Below, one piece after another: positions 27,268 through 35,085 of a stretch of DNA of 64,000 nt. The DNA comes from Desulfatibacillum alkenivorans DSM 16219. Lineage in GTDB: Bacteria > Desulfobacterota > Desulfobacteria > Desulfobacterales > Desulfatibacillaceae. The notes below the pieces were generated by a model. The model worked only from the letters and a program-made list of their open reading frames with translations. It made no database searches and was not told the DNA's origin. A program made the position numbers and the translations under genes. Numbering within the stretch: the first letter of the stretch is position 1; the number at the start of each line of letters is the position of its first letter. Location: positions 62,001 through 126,000 of the forward strand of contig NZ_FQZU01000004.1 in NCBI RefSeq assembly GCF_900142135.1, given 5' to 3'.

Positions 27268-27738
27268 TAGGGCGATTTGTAGTTGCGAGGTCTCCTCGGT
27301 TGTTGTAATTGCGGGGGGTCCCCGCTCGTAATCGCGAGGTTTCCGCGCCGGCAATCAACCGCATGCCATTTGTAGCGGCAGGCCCCCGTGCCTGCCCAAG
27401 GCGCGCTCTGCGCGTCTTGAAAAAGCGCCGAAAGATCTCCTTGCCCCGTAGCCGCTGGGCTTGCCCTGCCAGTAGTCGCTGGGTTTGCCCTGCCAGTAGT
27501 CGCTGGGCTTGCCCTGCCAGTAGCCGCTGGGCTTGCCCTGCCAGTAGCCGCTGGGCTTGCCCTGCCAGTAGCCGCTGGGCTTGCCCTGCCAGTAGCCGCT
27601 GGGCCTGCCCTGCCAGTAGTCGCGAGGTTTCCTATCCTGTAGTTGCAGGGTCTCCTCGCATTGTGCGCGGTCTCCGCGCCGGCAATCCACCAAATTCAAT
27701 TTGCAGGGGCGGGGCTTGCTACGCCTGTCATAACGCCA
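27268..27738. other. Repeat-filled intergenic region
   Basis: No gene. The whole stretch consists of degenerate GTAGTTGCGAGG-TCTCC-type units able to form GCGAGG/CCTCGC hairpins, a 24-bp tandem array (listed separately), and an outer direct repeat of 23 bp at 27338-27360 and 27669-27691 (GGTYTCCGCGCCGGCAATCM then ACC). Frames reading SRWACPA through the array are a by-product of its length being a multiple of three. Confidence 0.7.
27448..27627 (+). repeat. 24-bp tandem array (seven full units plus a partial)
   Basis: Unit GTAGYCGCTGGGYTTGCCCT plus GCCA, repeated from 27448 to 27615 with only C/T differences between units, then decaying at 27616. The four central units are almost identical, pointing to recent slippage or unequal crossover. 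It is a likely variable-number locus. Confidence 0.9.
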
Positions 27739-28524: not shown

Positions 28525-28560
28525 AAAAAAGGCGTTGGAATTGCTTCCAACGCCTTTTTT
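28525..28560. terminator. Bidirectional terminator
   Basis: AAAAAA, perfect 10-bp stem GGCGTTGGAA / TTCCAACGCC with loop TTGC, then TTTTTT. It is symmetrical and can stop transcription from the tRNA side and from the large minus-strand gene that ends at 28645. Confidence 0.9.
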
Positions 28561-28644: not shown

Positions 28645-31600
28645 TTAAAGCCCTGCTGCTTTTTGCAATGCAAAGCAAGCCTCTTCCGTTCCGATCCGGT
28701 TGTCGTTATTGACGTCCGCGTCGGCGAATACAGGCTCCCCAGGCACATTGCCGCTTGCTATCTGAAGGGCGATCACTGCGTCCGCCATATCCACGGAGTT
28801 ATTGTGGTCAATATCCCCGGGCGCGGCGGCCGCGTTCCTTCTGGTGAATTGCGAGATATTCAGGACGGCGACATGGGCCTCGGTCCCAAAGCCGCACAGC
28901 GCAAACACCAGATCGCCGGACATCTCAATTTCGCCGATGCGGCTGTCCGAGACCTCGTCGATGTCGGCCAGCCATTCAGGAGCGGCGGGATCGCCCATGT
29001 CCAGAATGTTGACGTTGTTGTCTATCAGGACGGAAGCCAGCGGGGTTTCCATGGCAAGTCCTTCGACGAATCCCGGGAAGCCCCCCACGACTTGCGGCGC
29101 GGCTGGCGTTGATACGTCAAATGCCTTGAGAACGCCGTCGGCTCCGTCCCGCACTCCCAGATACAGCAAATTTCCGGATACGTCCATGGAAGGAGGCCAA
29201 ATAAGCTCCACGACCACTTCTCCGATTTTTAGGGGTGCTGCGGGATTGGAAACGTCGATGATATGCACGGCGCTGCCCCACAGGGTTGTGTAAACGCGGC
29301 CGCCGGAGACGATAACGCTCCCCAGGCCTCCCACCCCCTCGTTGTCGTAGGTCCCCTTATACACCGGGGCGGCGGGATCGGAAATGTCCACCACCTGCAG
29401 ATTGCCGGGGCTGTCGGCAAAGGCCAGAACGGACTCCCCTATGTCAAACCCCTGAATCCACCCCTCGCCGCTGGCGTATGTTCCCGCGCCTTGAGGGTTG
29501 TGCGGGTCGCTCACGTCGATAAAATGAAAAACTCCGTCCCCGTTGGCTACGCAGGCCAGATCCCCGTTTACGGAGATGCCGTAAATCGACTGAAAATCCC
29601 CATCGTAAGATCCGGCGGGAACCGGGTTTTCAGGGTCCGCCGTATTAAAGACCATCAAAGCGCCTTCAATGCCGTCGATCAGGTAGAGATAATCTTCCGA
29701 GACCGCCATGGCTTCGATCCCGCCGTCCAGGGAAATCCGGGACTCAACCATCAGGTATTCCTTGAGGTTGGACAGACCGTCTTTGTCTGCGTCCAATAGG
29801 GCGTCGTCAACGGCGGGATCGAATCCCGAATCCCTTTCCCACTTGTCGGGCATGCCGTCGCCGTCGGAATCCTGGCTGTCCGGGCGCGTGCCAATGCGGA
29901 ACTCCAGAAAATCGTTAAGCCCGTCGTTGTCATAATCTCCCTCGCCGTCCCGCGGCGTTCCGCCGAAATACAGGATTTCCCAACTGTCGTCCATCCAGTC
30001 TCCGTCCGCGTCCGATTCCGTGGGGCCAAGCGCCAGGACCGGCGCCGGTTCGTATTCGGCTGTCTTGGTTCCGGTCCCAAGTTGGCCGCATTGATTGGTT
30101 CCCCATGCCCACAGGGATCCGTCGGATTTTTGGGCGATGCAGAAATTCGCCCCGGCGTCCACGGCGATCCAGTCCTTGGCCTCGCCCACGGGGACGGGAA
30201 TGTTTTCAGGGGCGTATTGTATGCCTGAGGGCTGGAAATGGGATAAGGAGCCCCAGGACCACAGGGAGTTGTCTCCGCCGATGGCCGCCGTTGAGGCGCT
30301 GCCGCAGGATGCGGCCAGCCAGATGTCGTAGGGGGCGATCTGGGTTGCAGACCATCTTTTCAGGGAGGTTTCTCCGTCGCCGATTTGGCCGCTGTAATTA
30401 TCCCCCCACAGGTACAGGGCTCCGCCGGGGGTCAAGGACGCATTGGTGGTATTTCCGGCGTCAATGAACTGGTGTCCGTAAGTTAGCGCTTTCCATTCAT
30501 ACTCCGTGCCTTGGGAAGGGGTCAGGGCCTCCTGGGCTGTTGTCGTTCCCAACTGTCCGTAATAGTTGTTCCCCCAGGTCCAGACGGATCCGTCCGTCTT
30601 TAAGGCCGCTCCATGGGTGGACCCTGAAGCGGCCCACAGCCAGTCGTTGTCCGTCCCGACCTGCACCGGGGCCGCTTGGTTTTCCTTGGACCCTATGCCC
30701 AGTTGCCCGCCGTTGTTCAACCCCCATGCCCAAAGGGTTCCGTCCGTCTTGACCGCCAGGACATGGTTAGAGCCCGCTCCAATGGAAGCCCAGTCCGCAC
30801 TGGCGCCCACCCGGACTGGGGCCTGCCTGTTTTCCGCATCGCCAACCCCCAATTGTCCGTAATAGTTTTGCCCCCACGCCCACAACGAGCCGTCGGTCTT
30901 TATCGCCATACTGAAATAATTGCCGGCGGCGACAACGTGCCAATCAGAATCCTCGCCGATTCGGACGGGTTTGGCCCGGTTCTCCGTGGACCCGTCTCCC
31001 AACTGGCCTGCGCTGTTTGCGCCCCATGCCCAAAGGCCTCCGTCAGGTGTAATGGCCAGGGCGTGCTCGGCGCCGGCGGCGAAAGACGCGGAGGGGGATT
31101 TCGTCTGCAGAGCCCCGGAAGTGCAGCTGGTTACTCCCGGGCCTCTGGAGCGCCAAAGCGTATGCTTGATAATGGAGGCGGCGCCGCTGGTGTGAACAAG
31201 CGACCACAGGGAATGATCGTGGGTGAAAATTTGCCCCCTGACTTTGCTTGGCGCCTTCACGGACCGCCACGTAACCCCGTCCTCCGAAGTCCAGGCCTCA
31301 AACGACTTATACGGGTCAACGTGGCTGGTTCCGCCTAAAAGCCACAAACGGCCGTCCAGGGACGCCAGCCCGGCGCCGTACCGGGCGTCCCACGCGGGGG
31401 CGTCGGTCTCCAGGGTCCAGTTGGCGCCGTCGGGGGAGCTCCATACGTCCCGGTAGGTCGTCCAGCCGGATTGAGAATCATAAAGGTCGCCGCCCATAAT
31501 CCAGAGCTTGTCCTCGAAAACCGCTGCGCTCATGCCAGTGGGGTATCTTAACGGCCAGGGCGCCGAAGCCATGGCCTGGGTCCAGGAAATTCCGTCAGAG

Positions 31601-34600
31601 GAGGACCACACGTCATTTTTGGCTTCGTATGCTCCGGTTTGTTCGTTATAAACATAGCCGCCCACCAGCCACAATTTGCCGCCCATGGATAAAAGGCGGC
31701 CGTTCCTGCGCTGTCCGAAAGGCGCATTATCCGTAGCGCGGGACCAGTACAGGCCGTTGTCCGAAACCCACACATCCGCATGCCGGGCCGTCACTAACCC
31801 GGGGTTTTCAGGGTCTTCGGTCCATCCTCCGGCCAGCCACAAACGGTCGTTATGGACTGCAAGGGAAAAGGCGGTTCTGGGCGCCCAGAGAGGCTGGCTG
31901 GCTTCCCGGGTCCATTGCAGGCCGTTTTTGGACGTCCAGGCTTCGTGCACGGCCTTAACGGCGCCGGAGACTTCTTCGGTTTCGTATCTGGCCAGCGCCA
32001 CAATGCGGTTGCGGAAGGAAATGGCGTGGGTGAAATAGTACCAGTCATCCGTCTCGGCGGCGTCGCCGAGATCATCCGCCATTTTCTCCCAGTCCACCCC
32101 AAGCTGCATGGGTGGAGGGGAAGGCGATTCCGGAGGCGCGTCCTGAGGGTAATCCGCCGGATCGGCCGGGTCCGTCCCCGCCTCAACTTCTTCCAGGTCC
32201 GTAAAACCGTCATCGTCCGTGTCCGCAGACAGGGGGCTGCTTCCTACGGCCTGTTCCTGGGCGTTGGTAAGTCCGTCTCCGTCATTGTCCCCGGCGCCGT
32301 CGAAATCCTGGTCCGGGTCCAGGCCGTAAAAGGTTTCCCAGTCGTCCCCGCAGCCGTCTCCGTCCGTATCCTCCGTCACATAGACGGTTACGGTTAAGGT
32401 GTATTCGCCGGCCACGGAAAAGGTTACTGTCTGGGTTCCCGTCTGGTTGTACGGCCCCGGGTGAAAGGAGGCCAGCCCCTGCGCGTCGCTGCTGCGGACA
32501 ACCTCGCCCTGGAGGATGGCTTGGTCGTAATCCTGGGAGATGGGCGCGCCTGCAACAGGGGCGCCTTCCGAATCCGTCACCCGGACCACCAGGGGCGTTG
32601 CTATGGTCCGGCCCACGGGAATGGTGTAGCTGGAAGGGGACACGCGTTGAATGACAAGCTCTCCGTAGCCGCCCGCGAGCTTGGCCGCAATCCAATCTGC
32701 GGCGTTTGGTATGCCCTGGCGGATCTGGTCGAGAGTCAGGTATCCAAAAGGCTCCAGATAGGGGCGGCTATGGTATTTTAAAAAACGCACGGACGTGAAT
32801 TCATCCACCAGAGGTTGATTTTCCGGCAGAATCACAAAACTCTCGCCTGCATTGAACCCATGGCCCACGTTGTACAGCGGCGGGCGCAGTTCGTGATGGG
32901 CGAAGGTCAGGTTGTCGGTGACGGACCAGATTTCCTCCGTCAACTGGGCGAATCGCCTCCATGCCGTCTGGCCCAGGGATTGGATGTAATCCACATGGGG
33001 AGCGATTTGCGTTTCTACATCCGGCGGGTTGGAGTGGTAATACACGGTGTCCACGTGCTGCCACATATAATTGTCCAGGATTTCCAGAGAGTCGAAAAGG
33101 TATCCGTAATCCCCCGCTCCTAAAAACACGTCATCATCCCCGAACTTGTAATCGAGCATTTCCTGCGCCGCCGCCTGTTTGCCTGCAATGGCGTCGTTAA
33201 AGGCAAGCATCCGGTTGATGGAAAAGGCCAGGGCGTCCGCTTGATTGCCTATTTCCGTGGCCTGGTCGCCGGCCTCGTCCGCCTCAAAAGCAAATTGCTC
33301 CACTTCCCGCTCAAAATATTGGATAATGGCTTCGGTCTCCAGAATGGATATGCCGTCCTCGGCCAGGTACACCCGGGCGGACAATCCCGTCACATCAGCA
33401 TCCGAGACCGTGAATTTTTCGTCAAATTCCACCGTGGGAACCGTGTCCGCATGATTCTCCATGAATTGCCGGTATGCATCGGCCTTGCCTTGAAGCACGG
33501 ACAAATTCCAGGCCAGGGATTCGATCTCGCTTTGCGCGGAGGCCGCAGCGCCCGCAAAGCGGTTGGCCTCGCTGCGAATGGCGTTGAGGTTTTCCAGCAT
33601 GATGTTCTGGCTCTGGCGCGGCAGCACAAACACTTGATAGGGTTGGCGGGGGTCCGTAGTGGACAGCAGGTCTTCCCATTCCCGGTAGCTCATGCTGGCC
33701 CGGGCGGCCTGGGACGCTTTTGAATAGGTTGCCACAAGGCTGGAAAGGCGTGAAGGATAATCAATGACCACCTCGTGCCAGTCCGCGGCCAGGGCGCCGG
33801 TTTGCGAGGGCGCCACGGCCGGACCGGTTGCAGCGGCCAGCGCCGTTTGGTATTCGGTCTTCCATGCTCTGGGGTCAGTCCAGGTCAACTTCAGTTCCTC
33901 TGGAATGGGGTCATGACTGGAGCAGTCCGACAGAGCTACAGGCGATCCATAGGATATGGCCATGTAGTCCGTCAGGATGGATATCAATTCCTGACGCCAC
34001 TCCTCCCCCAAAACGTTCAACTGTTGGATATTGTTTTCCCGAGGGGTTGTCAGGCTTTCTTCCCAGGCGTCATACCAGTCATTGAAATCATTCCAGGCCT
34101 GGGTGTCGTCCGCGGTGGGCGTCAATGCATTATAAGCGGCCTGGGCCTCGGCGTATAATTCGCTGATGATTGTCTCGCCGCTCTCCCAGGGAAGCTCGGC
34201 TCCGTCCAGGCCGTCTTCAACCACGGCAAGCTCTATACTGTATGGCGAACCGTCAAAGGTCGCCTGCTGCGCGGGGGGGAGAGGCATGGACAGGCCGCGC
34301 TGGATGCTGTCCAGCGCCATGGGCATGGCCGCCTCGATGCGCTCCACCTCCGGGACCAGAACATTGATTCCCTGGCGTATGGTGCGCAATTCGCGAAAGA
34401 GCTTCACGACATTGTTCTTCAAGGTGATCAACCGGTTCAGGAGTTGACCGGAAGCCTCCAGCCTGGTGAAATTCACCTGGATGTTGGCCGCGTCCTCCTC
34501 CACCTGGGCCTGAAGGTCAATCAGGTTCTTTGGCGCCATTAAAGGGTTGTCCTTGACGGTGTCTACAATGCCCTTGCTCAGGTTGACCATGCCGGTGAGA

Positions 34601-35037
34601 ATGGAAAACAACGTCTGGAGTTTTTTCAGCCCAAGTTGTAGCCTGGCTTCGTCAATTTCTCCCAATAACTGCTTGTATTGAGCCCTGCTGTCATCCATCC
34701 TGTCCTGGTAGTAGGAAACTTTAAGCTCGTCGGGAAGGGGATTCAGGCTGATGGGCGTGTATGTTGGATTGGACTTGCGTTCGTCCCAAATATAATAGGC
34801 CCAGCTTGAGGCCCTTTCCAGGTTGCGGGCGGTGGCCGCCAATTGCTCCTTGGCCTGGACGTAGCTTCCGGACTGCACTGCAGACGTCGCTTGAGCCATG
34901 AGGTTATTGATATTGTCTACGCTTCCATCAATCCCGGTCCAATTGTCAGCGGATAGGGGCGAGGTCCAGAACAAAAGGATAAGCATCGCCAAGGATGTAA
35001 AAGACCTCTGGCCAATCTTTAAAACTCCAAATTTCAT
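28645..35037 (-). CDS. Giant secreted protein: three beta-propellers, Ca-binding spacers, dockerin-like end
   Basis: 2130 residues. Signal peptide (LAMLILLFWTSPLSA). ~30-790: helical, coiled-coil-prone region, unrecognised. ~795-888: Big_1-like Ig domain (VGRTIATPLVVRVTDSEGAP). ~890-965: thrombospondin type 3-like Asp-rich calcium repeats (DTDGDG, DTDDDG). ~980-1300: six kelch-like blades (LWLAGGW, LWLVGGY, LWIMGGD, LWLLGGT). ~1315-1665: seven RCC1-type repeats (SLWAWGQNYYGQLG and variants). ~1670-1760: second calcium spacer. ~1765-2030: LVIVD-type repeats (VVDISDPAAP). ~2068-2130: dockerin-like pair of EF loops (GDIDHNNSVDMADAV; ADVNNDNRIG). I start at ATG 35037 with AAAGGTGG upstream. Likely an extracellular binding or surface protein; the ligand is unknown and no cohesin is visible in the window. 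Confidence 0.88.
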   Translation of the reverse strand: MKFGVLKIGQRSFTSLAMLILLFWTSPLSADNWTGIDGSVDNINNLMAQATSAVQSGSYVQAKEQLAATARNLERASSWAYYIWDERKSNPTYTPISLNPLPDELKVSYYQDRMDDSRAQYKQLLGEIDEARLQLGLKKLQTLFSILTGMVNLSKGIVDTVKDNPLMAPKNLIDLQAQVEEDAANIQVNFTRLEASGQLLNRLITLKNNVVKLFRELRTIRQGINVLVPEVERIEAAMPMALDSIQRGLSMPLPPAQQATFDGSPYSIELAVVEDGLDGAELPWESGETIISELYAEAQAAYNALTPTADDTQAWNDFNDWYDAWEESLTTPRENNIQQLNVLGEEWRQELISILTDYMAISYGSPVALSDCSSHDPIPEELKLTWTDPRAWKTEYQTALAAATGPAVAPSQTGALAADWHEVVIDYPSRLSSLVATYSKASQAARASMSYREWEDLLSTTDPRQPYQVFVLPRQSQNIMLENLNAIRSEANRFAGAAASAQSEIESLAWNLSVLQGKADAYRQFMENHADTVPTVEFDEKFTVSDADVTGLSARVYLAEDGISILETEAIIQYFEREVEQFAFEADEAGDQATEIGNQADALAFSINRMLAFNDAIAGKQAAAQEMLDYKFGDDDVFLGAGDYGYLFDSLEILDNYMWQHVDTVYYHSNPPDVETQIAPHVDYIQSLGQTAWRRFAQLTEEIWSVTDNLTFAHHELRPPLYNVGHGFNAGESFVILPENQPLVDEFTSVRFLKYHSRPYLEPFGYLTLDQIRQGIPNAADWIAAKLAGGYGELVIQRVSPSSYTIPVGRTIATPLVVRVTDSEGAPVAGAPISQDYDQAILQGEVVRSSDAQGLASFHPGPYNQTGTQTVTFSVAGEYTLTVTVYVTEDTDGDGCGDDWETFYGLDPDQDFDGAGDNDGDGLTNAQEQAVGSSPLSADTDDDGFTDLEEVEAGTDPADPADYPQDAPPESPSPPPMQLGVDWEKMADDLGDAAETDDWYYFTHAISFRNRIVALARYETEEVSGAVKAVHEAWTSKNGLQWTREASQPLWAPRTAFSLAVHNDRLWLAGGWTEDPENPGLVTARHADVWVSDNGLYWSRATDNAPFGQRRNGRLLSMGGKLWLVGGYVYNEQTGAYEAKNDVWSSSDGISWTQAMASAPWPLRYPTGMSAAVFEDKLWIMGGDLYDSQSGWTTYRDVWSSPDGANWTLETDAPAWDARYGAGLASLDGRLWLLGGTSHVDPYKSFEAWTSEDGVTWRSVKAPSKVRGQIFTHDHSLWSLVHTSGAASIIKHTLWRSRGPGVTSCTSGALQTKSPSASFAAGAEHALAITPDGGLWAWGANSAGQLGDGSTENRAKPVRIGEDSDWHVVAAGNYFSMAIKTDGSLWAWGQNYYGQLGVGDAENRQAPVRVGASADWASIGAGSNHVLAVKTDGTLWAWGLNNGGQLGIGSKENQAAPVQVGTDNDWLWAASGSTHGAALKTDGSVWTWGNNYYGQLGTTTAQEALTPSQGTEYEWKALTYGHQFIDAGNTTNASLTPGGALYLWGDNYSGQIGDGETSLKRWSATQIAPYDIWLAASCGSASTAAIGGDNSLWSWGSLSHFQPSGIQYAPENIPVPVGEAKDWIAVDAGANFCIAQKSDGSLWAWGTNQCGQLGTGTKTAEYEPAPVLALGPTESDADGDWMDDSWEILYFGGTPRDGEGDYDNDGLNDFLEFRIGTRPDSQDSDGDGMPDKWERDSGFDPAVDDALLDADKDGLSNLKEYLMVESRISLDGGIEAMAVSEDYLYLIDGIEGALMVFNTADPENPVPAGSYDGDFQSIYGISVNGDLACVANGDGVFHFIDVSDPHNPQGAGTYASGEGWIQGFDIGESVLAFADSPGNLQVVDISDPAAPVYKGTYDNEGVGGLGSVIVSGGRVYTTLWGSAVHIIDVSNPAAPLKIGEVVVELIWPPSMDVSGNLLYLGVRDGADGVLKAFDVSTPAAPQVVGGFPGFVEGLAMETPLASVLIDNNVNILDMGDPAAPEWLADIDEVSDSRIGEIEMSGDLVFALCGFGTEAHVAVLNISQFTRRNAAAAPGDIDHNNSVDMADAVIALQIASGNVPGEPVFADADVNNDNRIGTEEACFALQKAAGL

Positions 35038-35085
35038 AAAACCACCTTTCCGGATCATGCCTAAAGTGCTAAAATGAAGCTATAT

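Follow-up and report, generated by a model that had tools for sequence, protein, structure and literature searches.

In a 64,000-nucleotide stretch of the genome of Desulfatibacillum alkenivorans DSM 16219 (contig NZ_FQZU01000004.1, positions 62,001 to 126,000 of the forward strand; hereafter the window), one gene encodes a protein of 2130 amino acids in which three different beta-propellers predicted from sequence, of the kelch, RCC1 and LVIVD types, are combined with a dockerin-like tail. This three-propeller protein is probably a cargo of a non-cellulosomal cohesin-dockerin network, which would be exported and docked outside the cell by its tail. Across the order Desulfobacterales the tail tracks cohesins specifically, and not the control domain fn3; and the D. 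alkenivorans genome (6.47 Mb in 102 contigs) encodes both a family of such tails and two firm cohesins.

A dockerin-like tail shared by 33 open reading frames

A first-pass annotation, made by a model from the letters of the window, had described the end of the protein as dockerin-like, and had named missing EF-loop calcium ligands as evidence that would overturn its architecture. Both loops of the tail, DIDHNNSVDMAD and DVNNDNRIGTEE, which fall in the last 60 residues, do carry full ligand sets, with calcium ligands kept at positions 1, 3, 5 and 12. A hidden Markov model (HMM) made from 23 other tails of the same genome gave the tail 68.3 bits; the best of 1000 shuffled sequences reached 13.3 bits and the likeness is therefore not due to chance. 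The best match of the tail profile among solved structures was the dockerin 5m2o (E 4.5e-7).

Alignment A1, built from 24 tails of the genome, has the consensus GDxNxDGxxxLADAILxLQ ... ADxxGDGxxGLxEALYILQ. A search of the same genome with A1 gave 40 matches at a limit of E 0.01; those stronger than 1e-7, 34 in number, comprise 33 intact open reading frames (ORFs), all at E below 1e-10 and 24 of which match A1 by construction, and one broken frame. The tail is located nine residues or fewer from the stop codon in 28 of the 33 intact ORFs, and is internal or near the N-terminus in the other five; these positions were read in the D. alkenivorans genome only. The first-pass annotation had proposed a search of the genome for other dockerin-ended proteins and for cohesins, and both are present. 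The Pfam dockerin family Dockerin_1 (PF00404) matched 17 of the 24 tails at E up to 0.1, and 13 of 24 listed sites in the genome were over its cut-off (10 alone and three together with neighbours in frame). A hydrophobic stretch near the N-terminus was present in all 33 tail ORFs, but in only five of the 15 ORFs that were taken from the window as controls, this measure of export being hydrophobicity and not a signal-peptide predictor. The broken frame is a tail-like stretch with an internal stop codon (C69:18439-18588, L162); an intact tail lies at C69:14027, and the broken copy may be what is left of a tail protein that was duplicated.

Thirty of the 33 intact tail ORFs were scanned with Pfam for cargo domains. 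Seven carry propeller families over the cut-off: the three-propeller protein itself, two ORFs with RCC1, two with FG-GAP, one with Reg_prop and one with LVIVD. Laminin_G_3 was found in two ORFs (one also with FG-GAP) and Lcl_C in two; GH123, clostripain, M14, phosphoesterase, beta-helix, LRR, Cthe_2159 (a carbohydrate-binding domain), cohesin and others were found in one ORF each; and four of the 30 had no family at a limit of 1e-4. GH123 was the sole catalytic glycoside hydrolase match, and the non-catalytic domain GH43_C2 was marginal in one tail ORF (23.8 bits versus 22.7). In two places, tail genes lie adjacent to each other with N-termini that look paralogous by eye: a regulator-propeller pair (C76:307529-310574, L146) and a clostripain pair (C7:38914-41546, L137), one member of each having been scanned.

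Cohesins in the D. alkenivorans genome

The Pfam cohesin family PF00963 had four matches in the genome, of which two are firm. One is a protein of 176 residues that consists of a signal peptide and a single cohesin (C76:185561-185953); the other is a cohesin-tail fusion of 235 residues (C56:29577-30164), and such fusions, as judged from C-terminal sequence, are also encoded in other genomes. Two further matches were considered as scaffold candidates, C76:68205 (25.6 bits, over the cut-off) and C76:69111 (23.4 bits, below it). Both were absent from later protein-level or larger searches and we did not use them because the matches did not recur. The second lies in a 553-residue protein (C76:69111-69542; L160:8787-10448) which has a TSP3-like stretch and, by eye, another kind of dockerin-like repeat, the LDVDGDGSYNSLTDGILIFRYL type, in two copies.

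A profile of the single-cohesin protein, A2, was made from nine sequences of nine genomes, in which VDNLAG and HVVNDKxPG...VMAGARGIKG are majority motifs. Cohesin and scaffoldin chains lead its 25 matches among solved structures (3l8q, 7.8e-11). By eye, the single-cohesin protein has a plain signal peptide, with a charged or proline-rich C-terminal extension in several genomes. A2 found 24 loci, one of them weak, in a collection of named genomes which may exclude that of D. alkenivorans; these included Desulfatibacillum sp. MAG7, Desulfonema magnum 4be13 and Eth-SRB1. A congener (G001) has a single cohesin 75% identical to that of D. alkenivorans and at least 28 tails, and gave no match to the N-terminal region of the three-propeller protein.

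Co-occurrence of tails and cohesins

Among 194 Desulfobacterales genomes, a sample of the larger group, the tail was found in 47, PF00963 in 41 and both in 34. A PF00963 match was thus present in 34 of 47 tail genomes versus seven of 147 others (Fisher p 1.8e-20, which like the other p-values of co-occurrence is optimistic because genomes share descent). All 20 genomes with at least 20 tails had PF00963, as did 25 of the 27 with at least eight; tail numbers from the order and phylum searches are lower bounds, with only about 33 or 16 candidates scored per genome. When counted by family label (73 labels), 21 of 28 tail families had a cohesin versus four of 45 others. A2 matched 26 of the 194 genomes strongly (E below 1e-37) and one more at 2.1e-7 (limit 1e-6), and all 27 are tail-positive; the strong A2 genomes outside the nine that built the profile were tail-positive in 17 of 17 cases (p 6e-14). 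Further, A2 added a cohesin in three tail genomes missed by PF00963 (G046, G120 and G151).

Tail and cohesin might both merely mark genomes rich in extracellular proteins, an explanation which neither the fn3 control nor genome size supports. In a subset of 80 genomes, fn3 was present in 18 of 22 tail genomes versus 39 of 58 others (odds ratio 2.2, p 0.27), whereas in the same genomes a cohesin was present in 18 of 22 versus two of 58 (odds ratio 126). The cohesin pattern was seen in three classes of genome size, with 4/6 tail genomes versus 2/31 others, 6/6 versus 0/19, and 8/10 versus 0/8. Outside the order, PF00963 was found in 14 of 23 tail-positive genomes versus 23 of 355 (p 2.6e-10); many of the matches in these genomes score lower and could represent other dockerins. 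On one contig of another genome (G083:C358:19985-57990), seven or more tail matches lie in frames that are 958 to 1729 residues long, possibly a cargo cluster.

Domain order of the three-propeller protein

The features of the gene and its product are listed in Table 1. All three repeat types named in the first-pass annotation, kelch (six blades), RCC1 (seven repeats) and LVIVD, were borne out by sequence and were over Pfam cut-offs. RCC1 was matched at E 1.4e-54 in six stretches (182.8 bits versus a cut-off of 21.7); a motif scan gave six GQ[LI]G and nine WG-type matches, the count of seven repeats being made by eye; and among solved propellers this part matched UVR8, HERC2, RPGR, RCC1 and others, with a best E of 1.4e-73. 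The kelch part was matched by Kelch_1 (E 3.2e-8) and Kelch_6 (E 1.1e-6), has regularly spaced EAWTS/DVWSS and LW..GG motifs from which six blades were likewise counted by eye, and resembles designed SAKe proteins, Keap1 and others among solved structures (best E 1.3e-13). The LVIVD part had a Pfam E of 1.9e-12 (46.8 bits versus a cut-off of 20.2) and six LVIVD-type motifs by script; a sequence search of solved structures gave no match to it at E up to 1. A single-sequence AlphaFold2 model of the propeller region had a mean predicted local distance difference test (pLDDT) score of 31.9, too low for use.

The two calcium-binding spacers of the annotation correspond to two TSP3 stretches, the family (TSP3_bac) being over its Pfam cut-off at E 2.4e-11. 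The Ig-like domain is weak: it resembles Big_1 (E 0.0093 for the whole protein and 0.0022 for the N-terminal piece alone), but the score is below the Pfam cut-off. Neither a cohesin nor a catalytic family was found in the Pfam scan of the three-propeller protein, and a search of 58 other genomes (up to six candidates scored per genome) gave only partial matches.

Table 1. Features of the three-propeller gene and its product, in window positions.
Feature	Position	Strand	Basis or remark
Three-propeller gene	28645-35037	minus	2130-residue product; start ATG at 35037
Signal peptide	34948..35037	minus	By eye and hydrophobic segment; cleavage probably after ...TSPLSA
N-terminal region ('rod'), about 770 residues	32644..34947	minus	Mostly helical by prediction; low-confidence model
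Ig-like domain resembling Big_1	32374..32616	minus	Pfam, below cut-off
Bacterial TSP3 calcium-binding spacer 1	32125..32367	minus	PF18884
Kelch-type propeller, six blades by eye	31159..32061	minus	Pfam, solved-structure matches, motifs
RCC1-type propeller, seven repeats by eye, fifth and sixth degenerate	30055..31086	minus	Pfam, solved-structure matches, motifs
TSP3 calcium-binding spacer 2	29755..30045	minus	PF18884; similar stretches in relatives
LVIVD-repeat propeller, six clear motifs	28861..29736	minus	PF08309, motifs
Dockerin-like tail, two EF-type loops (28780-28815 and 28681-28716)	28648..28824	minus	Ends at stop codon
Perfect 16-bp inverted repeat with A/T runs	28525..28560		Downstream of gene

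N-terminal region and a remote paralogue

A single-sequence AlphaFold2 model of the N-terminal region had a mean pLDDT of 37.6, such that the helical rod is a low-confidence prediction only. Its 765 to 774 residues were matched in none of 394 other genomes from the phylum (at most two candidates scored in each); 42 stretches in the named genomes, own genome possibly excluded, fitted its pattern and none encodes a relative; and nothing convincing was found among solved structures (best E 0.62). The same genome does encode a remote paralogue, which the 394-genome search did not report, in a tail protein with a frame of 2243 residues (C83:19398; L138:599-7327). BLASTP aligned the two at 20.8% over positions 18-354 (E 1.3e-5, 33 ORFs compared), and the local score was 115 by comparison with a mean of 47.5 (standard deviation 6.8, maximum 88) for 200 shuffles and 35 to 48 for 22 other tail ORFs. 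In this protein the N-terminal region is followed by Big_5, TSP3 and Big_2 domains and then the tail. A TolB-like propeller match was weak and far below the cut-off; the protein is perhaps a second combination of rod, propeller and tail.

Reading frame and locus

The open frame (28645-35058, minus strand) has 2137 amino acids when counted from its first ATG. By eye, a sequence resembling a ribosome-binding site, AAAGGTGG, directly precedes the ATG at 35037, and this start therefore looks better than that at 35058, in agreement with the chain of 2130 residues first annotated here. Export of the protein is predicted from its N-terminal sequence. The neighbours are a divergent ferredoxin-type gene on one side and, on the other, a convergent ORF for which no Pfam match was found. 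The inverted repeat downstream is likely to be the transcription terminator hairpin of the gene. Elsewhere in the window, a 24-bp direct repeat occurs about seven times (27445-27630) in the space that separates a pyruvate-kinase-like gene from the ORF that follows; the repeats are open in two reading directions, giving units of the WACPASSR or GYWQGKPS type.

A probable docked cargo and the alternatives

The signal peptide would export the three-propeller protein, and its tail would most likely bind a cohesin outside the cell. The likeliest partners would be the single-cohesin protein, a type conserved in the order and the first candidate socket, and the cohesin-tail fusion, which could serve as a chain extender. 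Once docked, the protein would stay at the surface of the cell or in its extracellular matrix, with the propellers as putative binding platforms spaced out by the N-terminal region and by calcium-stiffened spacers; for the three propellers we infer an adhesive or ligand-binding role. The first-pass annotation had suggested a scaffold or an adhesion module plugged into a cohesin. The presence of cohesins in the genome and their tracking by the tail agree with the plug, whereas the scaffold was dropped: as Pfam finds no cohesin in the chain, we regard the protein as cargo, one of about thirty. The congener, which keeps the single cohesin and tails with no match to the N-terminal region, is consistent with a socket that stays the same while its cargo changes. 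It is possible, and we put this forward only tentatively, that in many Desulfobacterales a conserved single cohesin receives a large and fast-changing set of dockerin-tailed propellers, lectins and peptidases, the surface or matrix of these Gram-negative cells being altered by a swap of cargo. The three-propeller protein would then be one ligand-binding head of such a general-purpose plug-and-socket system.

Several observations weigh against a docked cargo. Dockerin_1 scored the tail of the three-propeller protein at 15.6, 17.9 and 19.4 bits, each below the cut-off of 22.9, and from rank 3 onward other EF-hand proteins are among the top solved-structure matches of the tail profile. Strict calcium loops number two or more in 10 of the 28 C-terminal tails, one in 13 and none in five. 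No firm multi-cohesin scaffold was found in the D. alkenivorans genome in the PF00963 searches; the single-cohesin protein has, by eye, no lipobox or membrane anchor; and around 14 other single-cohesin loci no ORF is common to more than three, frames overlapping the cohesin aside. Ten of the 47 tail genomes have neither PF00963 nor A2, one of which (G154, 73% complete) has eight tails, and in seven genomes a PF00963 cohesin is present but no tail was found. The shared descent behind the p-values counts here as well.

Alternatively, the tail would be a tag for sorting or export, recognised not by a cohesin but by machinery for secretion or surface anchoring, in a logic comparable to that of PEP-CTERM and type IX secretion tails. 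The C-terminal position of 28 of 33 tails, on otherwise varied proteins with exported-looking N-termini, is as such a tag would have it, and several tails have lost calcium ligands yet keep the ALYILQ-type helix. We nevertheless consider a sorting tag unlikely given the five tails that are internal or near the N-terminus, the lack, by eye, of a transmembrane helix or basic cluster after the tail, the tracking of cohesins and not fn3, and a profile closest to dockerins. The tracking of cohesins also bears on the least probable of the readings weighed here, in which the tail is a calcium-stabilised cap with no partner that spread among large secreted proteins by domain shuffling. EF-hand relatives among the profile matches, and the pair of TSP3 spacers that this chain also carries, likewise of a calcium-binding repeat family, would suit a cap; a cohesin association that is strong and specific, including the 17 of 17 result, and tails fused to cohesins argue against it.

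The three-propeller protein could instead be a secreted enzyme or a subunit of a periplasmic complex, with no role as a module for adhesion or binding. Enzyme families are indeed represented among the tail proteins of this genome, by matches to GH123, clostripain, M14 peptidase and phosphoesterase. By contrast, Pfam gives no catalytic family in this chain, and propellers of the kelch, RCC1 and LVIVD types mostly serve in binding. We find this alternative unlikely.

Relation to known systems

To our knowledge, dockerins outside cellulosome makers are mostly without known partners or purposes. Here a single genome supplies two firm cohesins along with a well-delimited set of tails, and so a simple binding test for this question; the order supplies a conserved single-cohesin protein which, in the 194-genome sample, occurs only where the tail does; and the system bears on the building of extracellular matrix by sulfate reducers, some of them syntrophic.

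Non-cellulosomal cohesin-dockerin modules were reportedly described by Peer et al. in 2009. The present system is like such modules in that the organism has no known cellulosome, the cargo is varied and a cohesin-dockerin fusion occurs; it differs in that some thirty tails share a signature which is mostly C-terminal, and in that part of an order conserves a single-cohesin protein, although earlier surveys may already list these proteins. Non-cellulosomal cohesins and dockerins are already known, including a pair in Archaeoglobus fulgidus (PMC9012536), and cohesin/dockerin proteins have been proposed as adhesins of the sulfate reducers that partner anaerobic methanotrophic (ANME) archaea (PMC10553843). 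By comparison with the adhesins discussed in the two papers, the likeness is in sulfate reducers of the same wider group with cohesin/dockerin proteins; unlike those adhesins, which are tied to syntrophic partners, the system here also occurs in Desulfatibacillum and Desulfonema magnum, and its cargo includes propeller, lectin-like and peptidase domains. PMC11557425 makes no mention of Desulfo or Deltaproteobacteria. The literature was searched for dockerins combined with RCC1 or other propellers, and for dockerins of Desulfatibacillum, Desulfonema, Deltaproteobacteria or Desulfobacterota. Among the titles and abstract openings listed, none describes this tail family, which does not establish that it is new to the literature.

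With the clostridial cellulosome the system shares a dockerin on the cargo, a cohesin receptor and calcium loops; it differs in that no cellulase family was found in the 30 scanned tail ORFs and no firm multi-cohesin scaffold in the genome, where multi-cohesin proteins were searched for and no search was aimed at carbohydrate-binding modules. In place of plant-cell-wall hydrolases as the main cargo, these 30 of 33 ORFs carry propeller, lectin-like, peptidase, LRR, Ig-like and other domains. The propellers themselves have the repeat signatures of the RCC1, kelch and LVIVD families, and the RCC1 and kelch parts also match solved propellers; unlike those families, the protein described here unites three different propellers in one exported-looking chain.

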